Positions 26,250 to 34,981 of a stretch of DNA of 64,000 nucleotides are shown piece after piece. This DNA is from Chloroflexota bacterium (GTDB lineage Bacteria; Chloroflexota; Anaerolineae; UBA7937; B3-Chlor): the NCBI GenBank assembly GCA_030603665.1, contig JAUVXJ010000003.1, positions 335,377-399,376 of the forward strand. The letters run 5' to 3'. Below the pieces are notes generated by a model. It worked only from the letters and a program-made list of their open reading frames with translations, did not search any database and was not told the DNA's origin. Every line of letters begins with the position of its first letter. Position 1 is the stretch's first letter. A program made the position numbers and the translations under genes.

Positions 26250-27344
26250 TCAAGACGAATCTGAATCCCTGTGGGCCTCCGCCATCATCTTCTCGACCTG
26301 GCTCCAGACCACGCGCAGCGCGCCGACTGCCTCTTCGGCAGACTGTTCATCCACCTGAAGAGTGCTCGTGTACTTCCCCGAGCCCGAGAAGGGCGCTTCC
26401 CTCTTCAGACGCTCAAGGAACCGGTTAATCTCTGCATCGTCGACCAACCAATCCCGCGTGTACACTTGGAAGCTGTTGGGCGGATAACCGTACATCACGG
26501 TCATGGCCCGTTCTAGAGGGAGCCGTATGGAGAAGCCCTTGGAACCCCAATATAGGATTAGCTGGCGGTGCTTTGCTTCCCGTATCATTCGCTCGAAGAA
26601 CTCTGCCGCGACAGGGGTGCACCCTGCTAGGAACGTCGGAAGATCGGTGGTGGGTTGTTTCGGAGGCTCCTTGGGGGGATCGTATCGCAGTCCTCTGGGT
26701 ACAATGAGCTGCCGTCCTTCAGTCTCAAATACGTCGATCTCCACGGCGTAGAGGGGAAGTTTGAGGCAGAGGTTGACATACTGGAGCAGGTCGCGGGACA
26801 GCCTGTCGGTCAGGCCGCTGGCTACCACAAGAAGGACGTGTTGACCGTCGGTTATGTTCTTGGACAAGGCCGACTCAAAGAGGTCGTAGTCCCACTCTTC
26901 GCCGCGCGTCTCCCCAAAGATTGGATCAAGACCGTCCCTCAGGGTTCCGGCGTCCTTGACCTGTTCGTCGTGGCACGCATCGGAACGCCAATAGCGCAAT
27001 ACAAGGTCTTCGAACTGCTTCAGTGTGGGGGCGGTTCGCCACAGGCTGGCGCCATAATCCAGCACCTGGGCCACCACCTGACGGCGGAGTTCCGGATTGC
27101 GGGCGAGCTTGGTCTCCACGATGATCACCCGCCCCTCGGCATCCACGAGGAGGAGGTCGATAGCTCCTGCCGGAACTGTTGTCTCCCGGCCCACGACCAC
27201 CACCTCCGCCAGATCTAGGTCGGATACCGGTATCACCTCAGGGTTCAACTTCAGCGCCTCCTGTAGCTGTGTCTCCGCTTCGAAGCGGCTCTCTTCCAAG
27301 ACAACGAAGTCGTCGCCGACTTTGAGTAGTGCTTTGCGTTTCAC
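26250..27344 (-). CDS. Putative PD-(D/E)XK-type nuclease (NucS/DUF91-like)
   Basis: The 364-residue protein contains a clear endonuclease-fold signature near residues 60-80: GAIDLLLVDAEGRVIIVETK, with the metal-binding Asp and the E-x-K. A preceding ETQLQEALKLNPEVIP segment is typical of NucS-like N-terminal regions. The rest, with VLLVVASGLTDRLSRDLLQYVN and a C-terminal helical region, is not recognised. Proteins of this kind cut DNA mismatches or act in defence; no activity can be assigned. GTG 27344 follows GGAAGG. It is the last gene of a same-strand run with the DUF7669-like and ASCH genes. Confidence 0.72.
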   Translation of the reverse strand: MKRKALLKVGDDFVVLEESRFEAETQLQEALKLNPEVIPVSDLDLAEVVVVGRETTVPAGAIDLLLVDAEGRVIIVETKLARNPELRRQVVAQVLDYGASLWRTAPTLKQFEDLVLRYWRSDACHDEQVKDAGTLRDGLDPIFGETRGEEWDYDLFESALSKNITDGQHVLLVVASGLTDRLSRDLLQYVNLCLKLPLYAVEIDVFETEGRQLIVPRGLRYDPPKEPPKQPTTDLPTFLAGCTPVAAEFFERMIREAKHRQLILYWGSKGFSIRLPLERAMTVMYGYPPNSFQVYTRDWLVDDAEINRFLERLKREAPFSGSGKYTSTLQVDEQSAEEAVGALRVVWSQVEKMMAEAHRDSDSS

Positions 27345-27865: not shown

Positions 27866-28309
27866 TCACCAAGGCAGCTGCTGGCTTGCGGCGGCCCGGA
27901 TTGCCGACAGCGCGTCTGCATCAAGGTAAGCGAACCCTTGCGGAGGACTCAAGGACTCGTCCAGCGCAGAGAGCGGCAACGGCTCTGGCAGCGCCCACAC
28001 TTGGCCTATCTCGATGGCGACTCCGATGCCCGCCGACGCATAGTATGCATCAAACTCCGTCCTCCTGATCCCTGCCACCGAGTGATAGCGCATCCAAAGT
28101 CCCTCGGGTGAGTCAGTACACATCCCAGATACCTCGAAGTAGGCGAGAATCCTCTGAACAGGACGACTCGCATAGAGCACCACATGCGAGACATGCTCGC
28201 GGAAGTTGAACTTCCTGAATTCGACCTTCTTTTCGCCGTTGATGATCAGCTCAGCGAACCGCGGACGAATGGGCAGAAGCGCTAGGGCACTAACCTTTTC
28301 TCTAACCAC
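27866..28309 (-). CDS. ASCH (PUA-like) domain protein
   Basis: The 147-residue protein has the ASCH opening ALLPIRPRFAELIINGEKKVEFRK and the continuation HVVLYASRPVQRILAYFEVSG, followed by IGVAIEIGQV. ASCH domains share the PUA-like beta barrel and are thought to bind RNA or modified nucleotides. The GTG start at 28309 is supported by AAGGAGG 7 nt upstream, which places the first 28 nt inside the 3' end of the PIN-GNAT-PUA gene. The pair is therefore probably translated from one message, and the small protein may partner the larger one, whose own C-terminus is also PUA-like. Confidence 0.78.
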   Translation of the reverse strand: MVREKVSALALLPIRPRFAELIINGEKKVEFRKFNFREHVSHVVLYASRPVQRILAYFEVSGMCTDSPEGLWMRYHSVAGIRRTEFDAYYASAGIGVAIEIGQVWALPEPLPLSALDESLSPPQGFAYLDADALSAIRAAASQQLPW

Positions 28310-29763
28310 TGTGTCGCCTCCTTGGGCACGGTCACGATCGACTGTGGGCTCGCGGTGATGACACCGCGCGCAATCAACTCCTGCAGTGGTATGGGTTTGG
28401 CTGGCAACCGCGATTGCCTGAAGAGAATCGCAAGCACCGCAGACGTGCAGAGCTCTTCGATTTCCCGGAAGCTATACACCGTTCTCTTACCCACGAACCG
28501 GGCCGCTTGAGCCGGTGAACGTGTGACCATCGTGTCTTCAACAATTCCGAGAGCAGTCACGGCACGGATATCCTCAGAGCGATAGAACAAGAGATTCGCG
28601 CCGGGCGAAAGCTTTCGAATCGCGGCATTGCAGAGGTAGGCCTTACGAATGCTGTTGCCAAACGGGTGCGCACCGGGCCAAAATGCTGCCTGTTCTTCCG
28701 CTTCAGGAAAAAGAACTCGATGGAACTTCGGCTTGATGGGAACCACAAATGCCGGCACATCCCTGATCTTCGCAGCGACCGGTCCATAGCGCCGGTTGAA
28801 GCTGAGCGGGTCGAGCGTGTCCCAATCCTCGTTGCTCGGCCGCAGCGACTTAACGAGGACGAGCTCCCCTAGGGGCGTTTTTGTATCGAGACTCTCGAAT
28901 CCGAACTCCTCAAAGAGGTCAATCAACGCACGGTGCTTCTCAAAGACGGTGACAAACATAGCCCGATAGCTGCTCGCCCTAGCGTGCTCGAACACGGGCT
29001 TGAGGAGGAGTTCCCCAAACCTGTAGCCGCTGTGCTCTTCCGAGACCTTGAACGTGCATATCTTCATGAGCTTGCCCTGCAGGCCATACTCGCCCGATCG
29101 CTCCTTCTTGACAATGCAGATGGCGGCGTGCCGTCCATGCACGCCGTCGATGAGCCAGGTATGACGACGCTGACGCTTCGCCTTTCGGAGCCAGACATCG
29201 AAGGTCGGATACTCCCTACGCAAGCTATCGAAGATCAGGTCATCAGCGTTAAGGACATGGGCGCTCACGTGGCGCACTGCGGGGGGTGGTTCCGGCACGA
29301 TGTCGAACAGACCTCGAAGTATGGACAGGGCGTCAGCGGTGTCTGCAACCCGGTTCCCCAGGCCCAATCGGCGCGCCTTCCGATGCAGCCCCCTGTCTTC
29401 CGTTACTAGGTAGTCCACAGCGTCGGCATCCAGGGCAGCAAGCAACTGACTGTCGACCCAATCGTTCGAGCGTTCCTCCGGACGCCCGAACACGCTTTGC
29501 CACGCGGCCGGGACCGATGGGGGATCCGGAAGAAGTGGGTATTTCTTCAAGAGCATCGCTCTGAGAGCCCGTCTCTGGCCATCGGGATCGGCACGAATCT
29601 CGGCCCCCACAGCCGGATGAACAACCAACGGGCAACCCGTGTCGGCCGCCAAGCGCGCCAGCTCAACGACTGCCATAGTGCCGACCTCGATATCCTCGGG
29701 GCCTGTTGGCTCAAGTGGTATTACGATGTTTGCGTCCAAGAGGAAGCTGATCGACTCATCCAC
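28282..29763 (-). CDS. PIN-GNAT-PUA-like fusion protein
   Basis: The 493-residue protein begins at GTG 29763, 8 nt after AGGAG; an upstream GTG at 29769 is too close to that site. Residues 1-150 look like a PIN ribonuclease domain (SFLLDANIVIPLEP, then ALDADAVDYLVTEDRGLHRKA with acidic residues). Residues about 190-300 look like a GNAT acetyltransferase (KICTFKVSEEHSGYRFGELLLK, then FVTVFEKHRALIDLFEEFGFES). Residues about 340-470 look like an ASCH/EVE barrel (VPIKPKFHRVLFPE, SPGANLLFYRSEDIRAVTALGIVED). This combination suggests a multifunctional RNA- or tRNA-targeting toxin-like protein, which is inference. It overlaps the downstream ASCH gene by 28 nt. Confidence 0.75.
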   Translation of the reverse strand: MDESISFLLDANIVIPLEPTGPEDIEVGTMAVVELARLAADTGCPLVVHPAVGAEIRADPDGQRRALRAMLLKKYPLLPDPPSVPAAWQSVFGRPEERSNDWVDSQLLAALDADAVDYLVTEDRGLHRKARRLGLGNRVADTADALSILRGLFDIVPEPPPAVRHVSAHVLNADDLIFDSLRREYPTFDVWLRKAKRQRRHTWLIDGVHGRHAAICIVKKERSGEYGLQGKLMKICTFKVSEEHSGYRFGELLLKPVFEHARASSYRAMFVTVFEKHRALIDLFEEFGFESLDTKTPLGELVLVKSLRPSNEDWDTLDPLSFNRRYGPVAAKIRDVPAFVVPIKPKFHRVLFPEAEEQAAFWPGAHPFGNSIRKAYLCNAAIRKLSPGANLLFYRSEDIRAVTALGIVEDTMVTRSPAQAARFVGKRTVYSFREIEELCTSAVLAILFRQSRLPAKPIPLQELIARGVITASPQSIVTVPKEATQWLEKRLVP

Positions 29764-29973
29764 GCACACAGCTCCTAGTGACTCACATAGACTTCAGCGC
29801 TCCGGGCACCCGCCCCAAAGCTCAGGTACGCGCCTTGTTGAGGCAGTGTTGATTCGGAGAAGCTCCCCCTGCCCGCTAACCAAGCCTGCGAGCGCAGGAT
29901 GTCAGACGACGAGTAGCCATCAGTCGCGGGTGCACTCTTGTGTGTCCGTCTCAGTACTCCGGGCGTAGTTCAC

Positions 29974-30717
29974 TCAGACTGCGCGGGCTACGCTTGCCAA
30001 CATCCTTCTCACTATCTCGTCCTGCGTCACGACACCGACAAACCGCGCGCGCCGGTCAACCACGGCAAGACTGTTCGCACCGACTCGATCCATCGCGCTA
30101 AGGGCCTGACGATTTGTCGACCCGGCTTCCACAGAGTCCATGATCACTCTCGGATCTCTCAGGATCTCGCCCGTCTCAATCTTCGAGACTATGTCGTCGC
30201 TCTGAAGAAGCACCCGGTAGTCGGCTGCTGTCATGAGACCCTTGAAGCCGCCATCCCTGTCGACGAAGATGATGTTGCGAAAGTGAGGGTACCGCTCCAG
30301 CTCACGCACGTATTCTTCTATAGCCCGTCTTGCGTAGTAGTCTCTCTTGCCAATCTCAAACGAGAGGGTGGTTGGTGGATTGCGCGCAAGCAAGGCCCGA
30401 AGCCTGTCCGTCCCACCCTTTTCCTCAACTACCTCAGGTTGTACCTCCAACTCCATCTCGGGCACTTCCAAGGAGATTGACCGCTGCGCCTCGCTACGCA
30501 GCAGCAGGGCTATCCCACCCGGTCCCCTGATTTCCTTCAACTGTCCCGAGGCTGCCAGCAGGATGGCAAACGGCACGAGTGCTATGAAGACGTGCACCGG
30601 CTCGATCTCAGGAGTCAGGGCCGGTACCGCGTAGTGGACGTTCGCCATACCGTATAGAAGACAAAGAAACACGAGCGAGCCAATGATGGTTATACCGACC
30701 GTTCTCACTGTCGACAT
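29974..30717 (-). CDS. Membrane protein with a CBS-domain pair
   Basis: The 247-residue protein has two hydrophobic helices (about 8-28 and 42-60), a linker with acidic repeats around 88-105, and a C-terminal Bateman module: FRNIIFVDRDGGFKGLMTAADY for CBS1 and ANSLAVVDRRARFVGVVTQDEIVRRML for CBS2. CBS pairs bind adenosine nucleotides and act as energy or ligand sensors. No transporter or enzyme partner is adjacent. Its upstream region, 220 nt away, contains an attenuator-like structured leader with its own promoter. Confidence 0.82.
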   Translation of the reverse strand: MSTVRTVGITIIGSLVFLCLLYGMANVHYAVPALTPEIEPVHVFIALVPFAILLAASGQLKEIRGPGGIALLLRSEAQRSISLEVPEMELEVQPEVVEEKGGTDRLRALLARNPPTTLSFEIGKRDYYARRAIEEYVRELERYPHFRNIIFVDRDGGFKGLMTAADYRVLLQSDDIVSKIETGEILRDPRVIMDSVEAGSTNRQALSAMDRVGANSLAVVDRRARFVGVVTQDEIVRRMLASVARAV

Positions 30718-30939
30718 TGTGCCCTCCTTCTGAATCTCGTCAACCCCTCGCGCTGCGTCCTAAGTTGAGTCTGGTACGCCCACCCCTCACAGCCTGTCAC
30801 AGTCGCCTCGAGCCTCAGTCCCACCTGCCTCTTGGTGACGTGAGCGAGTCAGACAATGCGCCTTGCCGCTGAGCTCGGGACCCTCACCCGCAGCCAGCGG
30901 ACCTAGTGCAGGATGAAGACCCTGGTTATCCCACACAAG

Positions 30940-31014
30940 AAGGCCCGCCCGGAAACGCAAGGCGAGCCTTGGTGACGAGGTATTGATCCTCGGATGCTCC
31001 CCCTGGACCTTGCG
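30940..31014 (-). ncRNA. Attenuator-like structured leader (possible riboswitch) or short RNA
   Basis: On the minus strand CGCAAGG (31014-31008) can pair perfectly with CCTTGCG (30962-30956), enclosing a hairpin CGAGG/CCTCG (30992-30988 with 30980-30976, loop of 7). The 3' arm of this pairing overlaps the 5' arm of a second stem, AAGGCTCGCC (30970-30961) with GGGCGGGCCTT (30950-30940), a 10-bp GC-rich terminator-like hairpin. The two pairings exclude each other, the usual design of an attenuator. No known riboswitch class was recognised. The T-run after the second stem is weak. Confidence 0.5.
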
Positions 31015-31019
31015 CCCAC

Positions 31020-31048
31020 ATCGTAGCACAAGTGGCATGCTTTGTCAA
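31020..31048 (-). promoter_or_regulatory. Promoter of the structured leader
   Basis: TTGACA (31048-31043), a 17-nt spacer and TACGAT (31025-31020) on the minus strand. Transcription would start at about 31013-31016, at the first base of the leader's outer stem. Confidence 0.65.
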
Positions 31049-31107
31049 GCTTGTTTGAGCAGGCTCGGGAACCCATCGCAACAATCAAGGCGTGATGCCC
31101 GTTCGGC

Positions 31108-31223
31108 TCAGTATTGAGCATCGAGGCACTCCAACGGCACCCACCCACTCTGGCCGCTCTCGTTGGTGGCCCAACCCCAGCCGCTTTCCATCAGCAGCAC
31201 GGTGACCGTCTCTCCCTCCTCCA
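31108..31223 (-). pseudogene. 3' fragment of an SH3-domain gene (duplicate of the end of 33396-33737)
   Basis: Bases 31130-31223 match 33415-33508 at 90 of 94 positions in the same orientation. They encode EEGETVTVLLMESGWGWATN and on to WVPLECLDAQY, ending at TGA 31110-31108. Upstream of 31223 the similarity stops in the promoter region of the AbiE-like pair and no start codon with a ribosome binding site is present. Three of the four differences are synonymous. Confidence 0.75.
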
Positions 31224-31329
31224 GGATCAGGCACGGTTGGAGCAGTGGTGTCCTGCTCCTTTCACATGGCAGAAGTCGGCGGAGTAATACTACACCCCTC
31301 CTATCCCCCGCGCAAGCAACGAACCCTGC

Positions 31330-31358
31330 TTGACAGATGTGTTCGCTTGGAGTATACT
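31330..31358 (+). promoter_or_regulatory. Promoter of the AbiE-like toxin-antitoxin operon
   Basis: TTGACA (31330-31335), a 17-nt spacer and TATACT (31353-31358), immediately followed by the operator palindrome. Confidence 0.75.
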
Positions 31359-31398
31359 GTTTACCCTAGGGTAAACACCCTCGATAGAGTAAACAGTA
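31359..31398. promoter_or_regulatory. Operator with three GTTTAC/GTAAAC boxes
   Basis: GTTTACCCTAGGGTAAAC (31359-31376) is a perfect 18-bp palindrome touching the -10 box. A third box GTAAACAGTA (31389-31398) is the exact reverse complement of TACTGTTTAC at 31355-31364. This suits cooperative autorepression by the HTH protein encoded just downstream. Confidence 0.65.
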
Positions 31399-31423
31399 CG
31401 CGCCAACACGATAGGAGCCGCAG

Positions 31424-32506
31424 ATGCAATCGCCCAAGGACGTTGATCTTCAGCAACGGGTCTTCGACAACATCGCCTCCCTGCTGGGGGTCCCGGATGC
31501 CTCCTTCCAGGCAGAAGAAACCCCTCGGCCGGAGTTCGACTTCTCGGGAACCCTGTCCTTACGCGGCCATCAGATTCGCGTCGTGGGAGAGGTCAAGGCA
31601 GTTGGTGAGCCATGGGCAATCCGCAGTGCCATACACCAACTCAGCGAACACCGCGCCCACAACCCAGAGCACGTGCCCCTACTCGTGTCCGAGTTCATCG
31701 GTCCGAAGGGGAGAGAGCTATGCAAGCGGTATCGGATCGCCTACGTGGACCTTGCCGGCAACGCCTACTTGGAGTGGGGCGACGTCTACATCGACAAGGC
31801 ACGCGAGGGCCCCTCCTCCCGCATGCCCAAACGGGCGAAATCTCTGTTCTCCGACAAGGCCTCACTGGTGATCAGGTCCGCTCTACACGCCCCGGACCAG
31901 CCGCAGAGGGTGCGCGAGTTGTCCAGACAGTTGGCCCTGAGCCCAGCCTGGGTATCGCAGGTCCTCCGGCGGTTGCTCTCCGCTGGCTACGCAGCAAGCG
32001 TCGACGAAGGCACAATCATCTCCAGGCCTTTGGACCTACTGAATGATTGGGCGGAATCCTACAACTTCATTCGGCGAAACGATCTACGCTCATTCTTCTG
32101 CGACGCGCCAAACCCCCAGCAGGTGATCGCCCGCGTTGCCTCCGCACCGACCCATGGGATCGGCAGATATGCACTTACACTGCACGCGGGCGCATCGATG
32201 GTCGCGCCGTTCTCGGAGTTCCACGAAGTACACATCTACATGGATTCCTCAGGCTTGAGGGAGGAGACTGAACAGGCGTGGAAAGAGACGCTCGACCTGC
32301 ACCCCGTCGCAACGGGCGGCAACGTCTACTTGACGTGGCCCTACTACAAGGAAGGAGCCTTCTACGGAAGAGGGAATGTAGAGGGCCTGTGGGTAGCATC
32401 AGACATACAGTTGTACGTTGACCTCTACAACTACCCGGTGCGCGGACGGGAGCAAGCGGAGTATCTCCTGCGAAACAGACTGGCTCACCTTGGGAGTCCG
32501 GGATGA
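31424..32506 (+). CDS. AbiEi-like antitoxin/HTH regulator of a type IV toxin-antitoxin pair
   Basis: The 360-residue protein has an N-terminal domain with a nuclease-fold look (VVGEVKAVGEPWAIRSAIHQL, with E-x-K), followed by RIAYVDLAGNAYLEWGDVYIDK. A winged helix lies near 150-215: RVRELSRQLALSPAWVSQVL. The C-terminal half is alpha/beta and not recognised in detail. The order, the ATGA overlap with a nucleotidyltransferase and the palindromic promoter match AbiE-type operons, in which AbiEi represses its own operon and blocks AbiEii. The domain order differs from classical AbiEi, whose HTH is N-terminal. ATG 31424 follows AGGAG. Confidence 0.72.
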   Translation: MQSPKDVDLQQRVFDNIASLLGVPDASFQAEETPRPEFDFSGTLSLRGHQIRVVGEVKAVGEPWAIRSAIHQLSEHRAHNPEHVPLLVSEFIGPKGRELCKRYRIAYVDLAGNAYLEWGDVYIDKAREGPSSRMPKRAKSLFSDKASLVIRSALHAPDQPQRVRELSRQLALSPAWVSQVLRRLLSAGYAASVDEGTIISRPLDLLNDWAESYNFIRRNDLRSFFCDAPNPQQVIARVASAPTHGIGRYALTLHAGASMVAPFSEFHEVHIYMDSSGLREETEQAWKETLDLHPVATGGNVYLTWPYYKEGAFYGRGNVEGLWVASDIQLYVDLYNYPVRGREQAEYLLRNRLAHLGSPG

Positions 32507-33336
32507 TTCGAACCCCGTCTGCTACTGGAATCGACCCTCGGCTGCTCAGCACGCTCGGGGCTCTTGGCGACTACCTTCAAGACGTCGTAGTGGTGGGCGG
32601 CTGGGTCCCTCACCTCTACCGCAGGATCTGGCCCTCCGAGAGCCCGGTCGAAGCGCGGCGCACCTTCGATCTCGACGCCGCAGTTGGAGGGCCGCTCGCC
32701 GTGCGGAGCCGGTCGCGCCTTGACGTCCTTCTCGCGGCGGAAGGCTATACGCCGACACTCGGAGGGGCAAATGGCCCTGCCGCGCAGATCTACCAAAGCC
32801 CGCCAGACAGCGATCTCCTGCCTATCGAGTTCCTGGCGCCGCTCACCGGGCGCCGCGAACAGGCCACTGTTCAAATCCAGGAAGGGGTGACCGCACAGGC
32901 CCTGCGGTACCTGAACATCCTGCTGGAGAACACCTTCGATGTCCGCGTCAGCGCCCAAACGGCTGGAGCCTCCCCGGACGAACTGACCGTTCGCATACCG
33001 ATTCCGGGAGCGTACGTCTTCCACAGAGGTCTGATTAGTGCGCCAGTTGGCCGCCGGCGGCGAGGGAAGGACCTGTACTACATCTTCGAAACCTGGGCGA
33101 GTTTGTCCAACCTCCGGAACCAGATGGCCAAAGAGATAGGAGAGCTGCGCGTCCGGTATCCTCGACCTTGGTATCGGCGGTTTCGGTCTAACCTGGAATC
33201 GCTCTTCCCCAACAGTGCCGGCGGGGGAGTGCTCCTGGTCTTCCAGCAATACGAGGCAAGGGAGCCCAGGGAAATCGCGCACCAGCGAATCTACCAGGCC
33301 TTTGCTGACCTTCTTCGCGCTGTTCCCCCCGACTAG
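32503..33336 (+). CDS. AbiEii-like nucleotidyltransferase (candidate toxin)
   Basis: The 277-residue protein has the minimal nucleotidyltransferase signature: VVVGGWVPHLYRR near 28-41 and RRTFDLDAAV near 52-61, giving the GG-W and D56-x-D58 metal pair. These features define the DNA polymerase beta-type fold of AbiEii/MenT toxins, which transfer nucleotides to tRNA. Residues in the C-terminal half, such as KDLYYIFETWASL, fit the AbiEii-type KD motif. Its start overlaps the antitoxin-like gene by ATGA, and the two are probably made together. The toxic activity is inferred from family and context only. Confidence 0.72.
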   Translation: MIRTPSATGIDPRLLSTLGALGDYLQDVVVVGGWVPHLYRRIWPSESPVEARRTFDLDAAVGGPLAVRSRSRLDVLLAAEGYTPTLGGANGPAAQIYQSPPDSDLLPIEFLAPLTGRREQATVQIQEGVTAQALRYLNILLENTFDVRVSAQTAGASPDELTVRIPIPGAYVFHRGLISAPVGRRRRGKDLYYIFETWASLSNLRNQMAKEIGELRVRYPRPWYRRFRSNLESLFPNSAGGGVLLVFQQYEAREPREIAHQRIYQAFADLLRAVPPD

Positions 33337-33395: not shown

Positions 33396-33737
33396 CTACT
33401 CCGGCTGGAGATGTTCCAACGGCACCCACCCGCTCTGGCCGCTCTCGTTGGTGCCCCAACCCCAGCCGCTCTCCATCAGCAGCACGGTGACCGTCTCCCC
33501 CTCCTCCACATTCAGCTCCGTCGCCGTGTAGTCGCGCTGGAGAACGCACAAATCCCCCTCCACCTCCACCCAGTTCTTGGGCAGCCAGCGGCTCTCACCC
33601 GTGTCGGTGGTGCACCAGATCCAACCCGGCCACTCACATTCCCGGGGCTCCCACGTCAGCCGCTCGCCCTTGGGGAGGGTCAGGGGGGCGGTATATGGGG
33701 ACTGGTACGATCTGATCACCCGGGACGTCTCTGACAC
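33396..33737 (-). CDS. Small protein with two SH3-like domains
   Basis: The 113-residue protein starts at GTG 33737, 7 nt after AAGGAGG. It contains two short barrels, each ending in an SH3-like tail: LTWEPRECEWPGWIWCTTDT-GESRWLPKNWVE and EEGETVTVLLMESGWGWGTN to GQSGWVPLEHL. Such variant SH3 proteins may bind peptides or cell-wall components, and no role can be assigned. Its last 94 bp are duplicated at 31130-31223, on the other side of the toxin-antitoxin pair. Confidence 0.75.
   Translation of the reverse strand: MSETSRVIRSYQSPYTAPLTLPKGERLTWEPRECEWPGWIWCTTDTGESRWLPKNWVEVEGDLCVLQRDYTATELNVEEGETVTVLLMESGWGWGTNESGQSGWVPLEHLQPE
33415..33508. repeat. 94-bp direct repeat, right copy (in the SH3 gene)
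   Basis: It matches 31130-31223 at 90 of 94 bases in direct orientation. The two copies bracket the AbiE-like operon. Confidence 0.85.
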
Positions 33738-34799: not shown

Positions 34800-34927
34800 G
34801 GAGTTCCTCCTTTCGAACGAGGCGATTCAGCGGACTCTCCCAACACCGGCTGTCCACTTAGGGGTGCAGGACGAGCATATGCGAAGTAGAGTCGAAGTAG
34901 GGAATGCAACGCCCTGCACCCACCAAT

Positions 34928-34956
34928 AGTATACCACATAGGGGGTTGCCTGTCAA
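34928..34956 (-). promoter_or_regulatory. Promoter of rmuC
   Basis: TTGACA (34956-34951), a 17-nt spacer and TATACT (34933-34928) on the minus strand. Confidence 0.75.
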
Positions 34957-34981
34957 TACAGGCCAGGATGCAGGCCTGGCC

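Follow-up and report, generated by a model that had tools for sequence, protein, structure and literature searches.

In riboswitch and attenuator leaders, mutually exclusive antiterminator and terminator helices share one strand. The control of costly or toxic defence systems, which are to stay quiet and then be turned on, is largely an open question. For the RCd22/abiF leader of Clostridioides difficile, transcription is described as ending mostly at a terminator ahead of the defence gene, and the authors also name the leader of lactococcal abiD1 as giving a short, terminated RNA (PMC12373285). The LoaP/dfn leader combines a small RNA hairpin and an intrinsic terminator before long operons with antitermination by a NusG paralogue (PMC12691694). 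The shared defence regulators met in the literature are proteins, namely BrxR/WYL, which are DNA-binding proteins of one regulator type before diverse defence systems (PMC9122601). No report of one RNA leader common to several defence operons was found in the literature searched, which consisted of open-licence papers.

The leader studied here lies in a 64,000-nt stretch of DNA from a Chloroflexota bacterium (the window) and is probably a cis-acting transcription attenuator of a lineage-specific kind, present in further copies before many, often defence, operons. The RCd22-abiF leader is the closest known system in its working. The abiF RNA (RF03085) likewise has a SigA-type promoter, an RNA of ~100 nt, a Rho-independent terminator, a defence gene behind it and readthrough as the proposed switch (PMC12373285). 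That RNA goes with one protein family there, whereas the present leader stands before many unrelated operons and has an explicit alternative between two helices, A:C and C:D, in which A and C are the segments of Table 1 and D is the second terminator arm. No covariance match to RF03085 was found in the window, and abiF is not among the downstream families. As in riboswitches and attenuators, one strand is common to antiterminator and terminator; unlike in these, no aptamer-like conserved multi-helix core is seen in the alignment of 22 copies (A7), and no leader peptide appears to be encoded, since the distance from the GAGC loop to the terminator arm varies (20, 29, 30 or 31 nt) and no frame is shared. 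A leader-peptide attenuator was rejected on these grounds. The small hairpin and intrinsic terminator before long operons are shared with the LoaP/dfn leader, but the conserved UNCG hairpin of that leader (PMC12691694) was not identified here. LoaP-type antitermination was also rejected, as a NusG paralogue is not general in the family: one NusG match each was found in three genomes (G000, G001 and G002) and two in the fourth (G003), all counted in incomplete assemblies.

The original prediction had proposed a minus-strand TTGACA-17-TACGAT promoter, a pairing of the first transcribed bases CGCAAGG with CCTTGCG around a small hairpin (CGAGG/CCTCG), and an overlap of CCTTGCG with a 10-bp terminator-like stem ahead of a gene for a membrane protein with CBS domains. 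All of these are present (Table 1), together with a TG before the -10 hexamer and a U-rich tail behind the stem. A longer pairing had gone unnoticed, that of CAGGGGGAGC (31005-30996) with GCTCGCCTTG (30967-30958). The consensus of the 22 copies in A7 is TGCAGGGGGAGC for segment A, AGGCTCGCCTTGCA for C, and GGGCGGGCCTT plus a T-rich tail for D. In the consensus antiterminator TGCAGGGGGAGC pairs with GCTCGCCTTGCA, and this helix has one strand in common with the shorter terminator helix. The linker often reads CATCATCTCTTCTTCGAC, and most other copies have a pyrimidine-rich CTTCTTCGAC in it instead of the CGAGG/CCTCG hairpin.

Table 1. Features of the window locus and first genes behind other copies of the leader
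Feature	Position	Strand	Basis or remark
Sigma-70-type promoter	31020..31048	-	-35 TTGACA 31048-31043, -10 TACGAT 31025-31020, spacer 17, TG extension
CGCAAGG, 5' arm of the pairing first described (partner 30956-30962)	31008..31014	-	Sequence and nascent fold
Segment A TCCAGGGGGAGC, predicted antiterminator 5' strand; family consensus TGCAGGGGGAGC	30996..31007	-	Pairing in 22-copy alignment A7
Linker with small hairpin CGAGG/CCTCG (window copy only)	30971..30995	-	Alignment A7, folds
Segment C GCTCGCCTTGCG, predicted antiterminator 3' strand and terminator 5' arm plus loop	30956..30967	-	Most conserved stretch
Intrinsic terminator hairpin AAGGCTCGCC (30970-30961) / GGCGGGCCTT (30949-30940)	30940..30970	-	10 bp, predicted fold
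Terminator U-rich tail	30934..30941	-	T fraction of tails
CBS-domain membrane protein, 247 aa, first gene behind the window leader	29974..30717	-	Pfam CBS E=2.2e-5; no PADLOC hit
PDC-M11A candidate phage-defence protein, second same-strand gene	28282..29769	-	PADLOC E=8.4e-179, nearly whole profile
PDC-S11 match, candidate defence gene further on behind PDC-M11A	26250-27344	-	PADLOC
Degenerate second promoter-leader copy before the RmuC gene	34843..34972	-	32.4 bits with R3
First gene of c173: BrxA			Then BrxB and a further large ORF
First gene of c64 and B3_62b: type III methylase			B3_62b cut by contig end
First gene of c47a: type IIG enzyme
First gene of own_C8: Mrr type IV enzyme
First gene of c89_3047: DUF3644/PDC-S19
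First gene of c7_370: nucleotidyltransferase PDC-S09
First gene of B3_62a: partial PDC-S11
First gene of c89_5664: EEP nuclease
First gene of c7_2412: ClpP-like			Then AbiEi
First gene of c7_4519: protein without assigned function			Then SNF2 helicase
First gene of own_C27: DUF6144			Then PDC-M05A

From the window by itself no decision was possible, because its folding energy does not set the leader apart from shuffled sequence (z of -1.18, with 20 of 200 shuffles folding as well) and no Rfam family applies. The Rfam 15 scan gave 0 matches at the gathering threshold in the window and 0 at E<=1 for 30600-31450, in agreement with the earlier impression that no known riboswitch class is matched. 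Nothing pointed to a nucleotide ligand. A simple terminator scan detected just a 5-bp version of the window stem, and a 3.5-kb stretch contained three promoter-like sites where its shuffles gave 0.8 (sd 0.9).

The CBS protein has no homologue in the other three genomes of the family and could not serve as an anchor for homologous leaders, so a DNA search was used instead. BLASTN with 30718-31110 over the four family genomes found six places in three of them (four in G003 and one each in G001 and G000, the genome of the window), and the matches span parts of the promoter, leader and terminator and end there. The supposed tie to a nucleotide-sensing CBS gene is not supported, since the leader recurs in relatives before other genes. 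A covariance model of six copies (R2) picked up copies that were not in it, with scores such as 90.2, 84.1, 80.4 and 79 bits. A model of 19 copies (R3) gave 22 places of at least 40 bits in three of the four family genomes (13 in G003, six in G000 and three in G001), 19 of which were in the model and score high by construction. The genome G002, which is 68% complete, has only two R3 matches, both of ~28 bits and within the noise. In 18 randomly chosen loci from these genomes (80 kb in all), R3 scores stayed at or below 15.4 bits. Hence the element stands above chance because of its recurrence, and not because of its folding energy.

Across the 392 class genomes outside the family (396 with it), R3 scored no higher than 27.7 bits and 16 genomes had any match at E<=0.001; these matches are isolated and weak and were taken as chance, and the one in L011 resembled coding sequence. 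A pattern scan of genome contigs returned 22 stretches, with the element in L013, L028, L032 and L033 only, as judged by inspection; the other 18 were taken as chance or coding. No match to the leader was found in viral contigs. As far as the genomes searched show, the leader appears to be restricted to one Chloroflexota family. Alignment A7 contains 22 of 28 listed family matches; the two L083 rows and those of L084, L090, L091 and L094 were excluded because they had no terminator arm, were weak or were partial.

In A7, 84.4% of cells are paired between segments A and C, while slid registers give 34-52%, and the C:D terminator is paired in 85.4%. The A:C duplex has a mean of -19.8 kcal/mol against -15.4 kcal/mol for dinucleotide-shuffled A, with p<=0.05 in 12 of the 22 copies and p>0.05 in 10, the window copy being among the latter (p=0.113). 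When the RNA is cut before D, A:C or an equivalent forms in ~20 of 22 copies, c7_370 and c89_10740 being the exceptions, as judged by eye from the folds. The minimum-energy fold of the full RNA has the terminator in 12 copies, keeps A:C in eight and has neither in two (c170 and c7_370). For the window copy, the nascent fold (cut before the second terminator arm) is the pairing first described and the full RNA folds into the terminator. The tails of the 22 copies are rich in T (0.59 against 0.20 in the window). The recurrence, the alternative helices and the folds across copies thus back an attenuator-like leader with mutually exclusive stems, as had been proposed. Hairpin 1 was worse than shuffles when read as GGTGC/GCACC and slightly better when read as GCAGGG/CCCTGC.

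Compensatory changes had been suggested as a check on the stems, and the outcome is modest. Both sides have changed in 10 cells of the 15-pair A:C helix, where shuffles give 6.3 and 36 of 500 reach at least that count, but the 12-pair core shows no excess (2 against 1.3; 182 of 500 as high), and the terminator has 2 against 2.7. The variation in the helices is mostly of a G-U-compatible sort. In copy c84, both strands have changed and still pair at 13 of 13 positions. The covariation of the helices is modest to weak, and conservation of the sequence as such accounts for much of the support.

A rival reading is an unregulated brake, in which a strong promoter and a leaky terminator set a low expression of costly genes and A:C has no switching role. 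The promoter and the terminator are indeed the best conserved parts, with TTGACA and the TGTGCTATAAT region as the best conserved upstream columns in 19 copies and a mean column conservation of 0.88 in segment C, and the weakness of the A:C covariation is in keeping with a brake. However, segment A is itself conserved, at 0.78 where the 5' end has 0.51, and its pairing with C lies far above the slid registers, which makes a plain brake unlikely. A few copies are without the terminator 3' arm, and two that lack it keep an A:C-like pairing, which also speaks against a brake: the degenerate copy in the window retains GGGTGCAGG / CCTGCACCC (9 bp), and L091 retains ATACAGG/CCTGTAT although D is absent.

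In all 22 copies of A7 the first gene to follow has the orientation of the leader and begins 27-282 nt behind the match; under equal odds this has a probability of 2.4e-7, for copies that are not fully independent. The first gene was assigned by hand in five of them (c100, c170, B3_62b, c89_10740 and own_C27). Since every aligned copy faces a same-strand gene, the element is taken as a cis leader and not as a feature of the CBS gene. This bears on the suggestion, also made at the outset, of a short stable RNA of about 75 nt, which is compatible with the data as the terminated product, but every aligned copy has such a gene behind it. A family of trans-acting small RNAs of ~75-80 nt, each with its own promoter and terminator and with the pyrimidine-rich linker or a G-rich loop as its seed, would fit the anatomy (promoter, hairpin, single-stranded CTTCTTCGAC, terminator) and the fact that the leader is kept at a syntenic locus while the gene behind it differs. 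It is nonetheless improbable, as a same-strand gene within 282 nt of 22 of 22 copies is unexpected for free-standing small RNA genes, and the linker differs in c47a, B3_51a and B3_51b.

The genes downstream are mutually unrelated and have no protein family in common. Many belong to defence systems or candidates for such (Table 1), and other first genes encode an acetoacetate decarboxylase, a ferredoxin, an S9 peptidase, lipoproteins and membrane proteins. Of the 21 first genes scanned, six have a PADLOC match over at least half of the profile, as does one of 30 random genes (Fisher p=0.015); at E<=1e-10 without the coverage rule the counts are 8 of 21 and 3 of 30 (p=0.02). The control genes were long ORFs picked by hand, several loci giving more than one, and 21 of the 22 first genes were scanned, that of c47b being left out as an orthologue of B3_51b by sequence. 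The coverage rule was adopted because E<=1e-5 alone is a poor test of defence, and it was chosen after the hits in random genes had been seen: at that threshold 7 of 20 random genes had hits (to ATPase, hydrolase, radical SAM and methylase superfamilies) and 0 of 10 in another random set. Among loci fetched for methylase or Mrr domains, the leader lay within the fetched flank in only 2 of 21. This low share and the non-defence cases indicate that some, not all, defence operons carry the leader, and some other operons too.

The preferred reading, a cis-acting attenuator, would work as follows. The module comprises a strong promoter, a leader of ~80 nt and a terminator. Polymerase would start at the promoter, and segment A would pair first with segment C to form the antiterminator; arm D, once emerged, would displace A and give the terminator C:D. 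If this terminator works, transcription would mostly end after ~75-80 nt and leave the operon behind it weakly expressed, so that off would be the default state. A factor or condition that keeps A:C, or lets polymerase ignore the terminator, would turn the operon on. It is conceivable, as a more tentative proposal, that the copies make up one immunity RNA regulon, in which varied anti-phage operons (BREX, type III, IIG and IV restriction, AbiE, PDC-S and PDC-M candidates) stand behind one module and a single infection event releases all of them. A common signal, if there is one, may be a phage that renders polymerase resistant to termination, or a factor that binds the CTTCTTCGAC linker; no trans factor was found. 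If true, a single leader before many unrelated defence operons would amount to a shared riboregulatory layer for immunity, with RNA in the part that DNA-binding proteins play in BrxR/WYL regulation (PMC9122601). The leader would also serve as a sequence tag for new defence operons, with the CBS-membrane protein, the EEP nuclease, a 234-aa protein of G000:C5 and a membrane protein of G003:C89, all encoded behind copies without an explained role, as candidates.

The surroundings of the window locus can be compared with those of G003:C89, where RmuC is 79% identical. The gene order in both loci is leader, (EEP in G003), RmuC, SH3-like stretch, leader and X, in which X stands for CBS/PDC-M11A in the window and for DUF3644 in G003, where the SH3 gene was recognised by DNA similarity alone. 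At this syntenic place, the leader appears to stay and the gene behind it to be exchanged. On G003:C7 (L076, 1-8000), three consecutive units of leader and operon follow each other (nucleotidyltransferase; ClpP-like with AbiEi; a protein without assigned function, then an SNF2 helicase), and they look like an array of defence cassettes with a leader each. Three G003 copies (c7_370, c7_2412 and c170) also have ~50 more bases in common upstream of the promoter, which may be a sign of the recent duplication of a larger unit.

The units in a row, the swapped gene at a syntenic place and the shared upstream bases would all suit a module acting at the DNA level, a boundary or hot spot for inserting and exchanging defence cassettes that is conserved through recombination and not as RNA. 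This is very unlikely, as the copies diverge widely yet keep the promoter and pairing-compatible changes with many G-U pairs, and searches of 72,556 plasmid and 50,697 phage records returned nothing for the copy L086:3024-3163. Least probable of all is that the leader acts as a type III-like RNA antitoxin of the protein encoded behind it, a role discussed for abiF leaders: the order of promoter, non-coding RNA, terminator and defence gene is that of RCd22-abiF (PMC12373285), but the proteins behind the copies have no family in common and the window gave no Rfam match, RF03085 included if it is in that release.

The window also contains a 71-bp direct repeat (31130-31200 and 33415-33485, 96% identical), a duplicated end of an SH3 gene. 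It flanks an inserted plus-strand gene pair, HTH_5-like (31424-32506) and NTP_transf_8 (32503-33336), which resembles an AbiE-type pair and has no PADLOC match. Upstream of the pair, at 31330-31376 on the plus strand, is a TTGACA-17-TATACT promoter whose start region is overlapped by the palindrome GTTTACCCTAGGGTAAAC, a putative operator-like site before the HTH gene.
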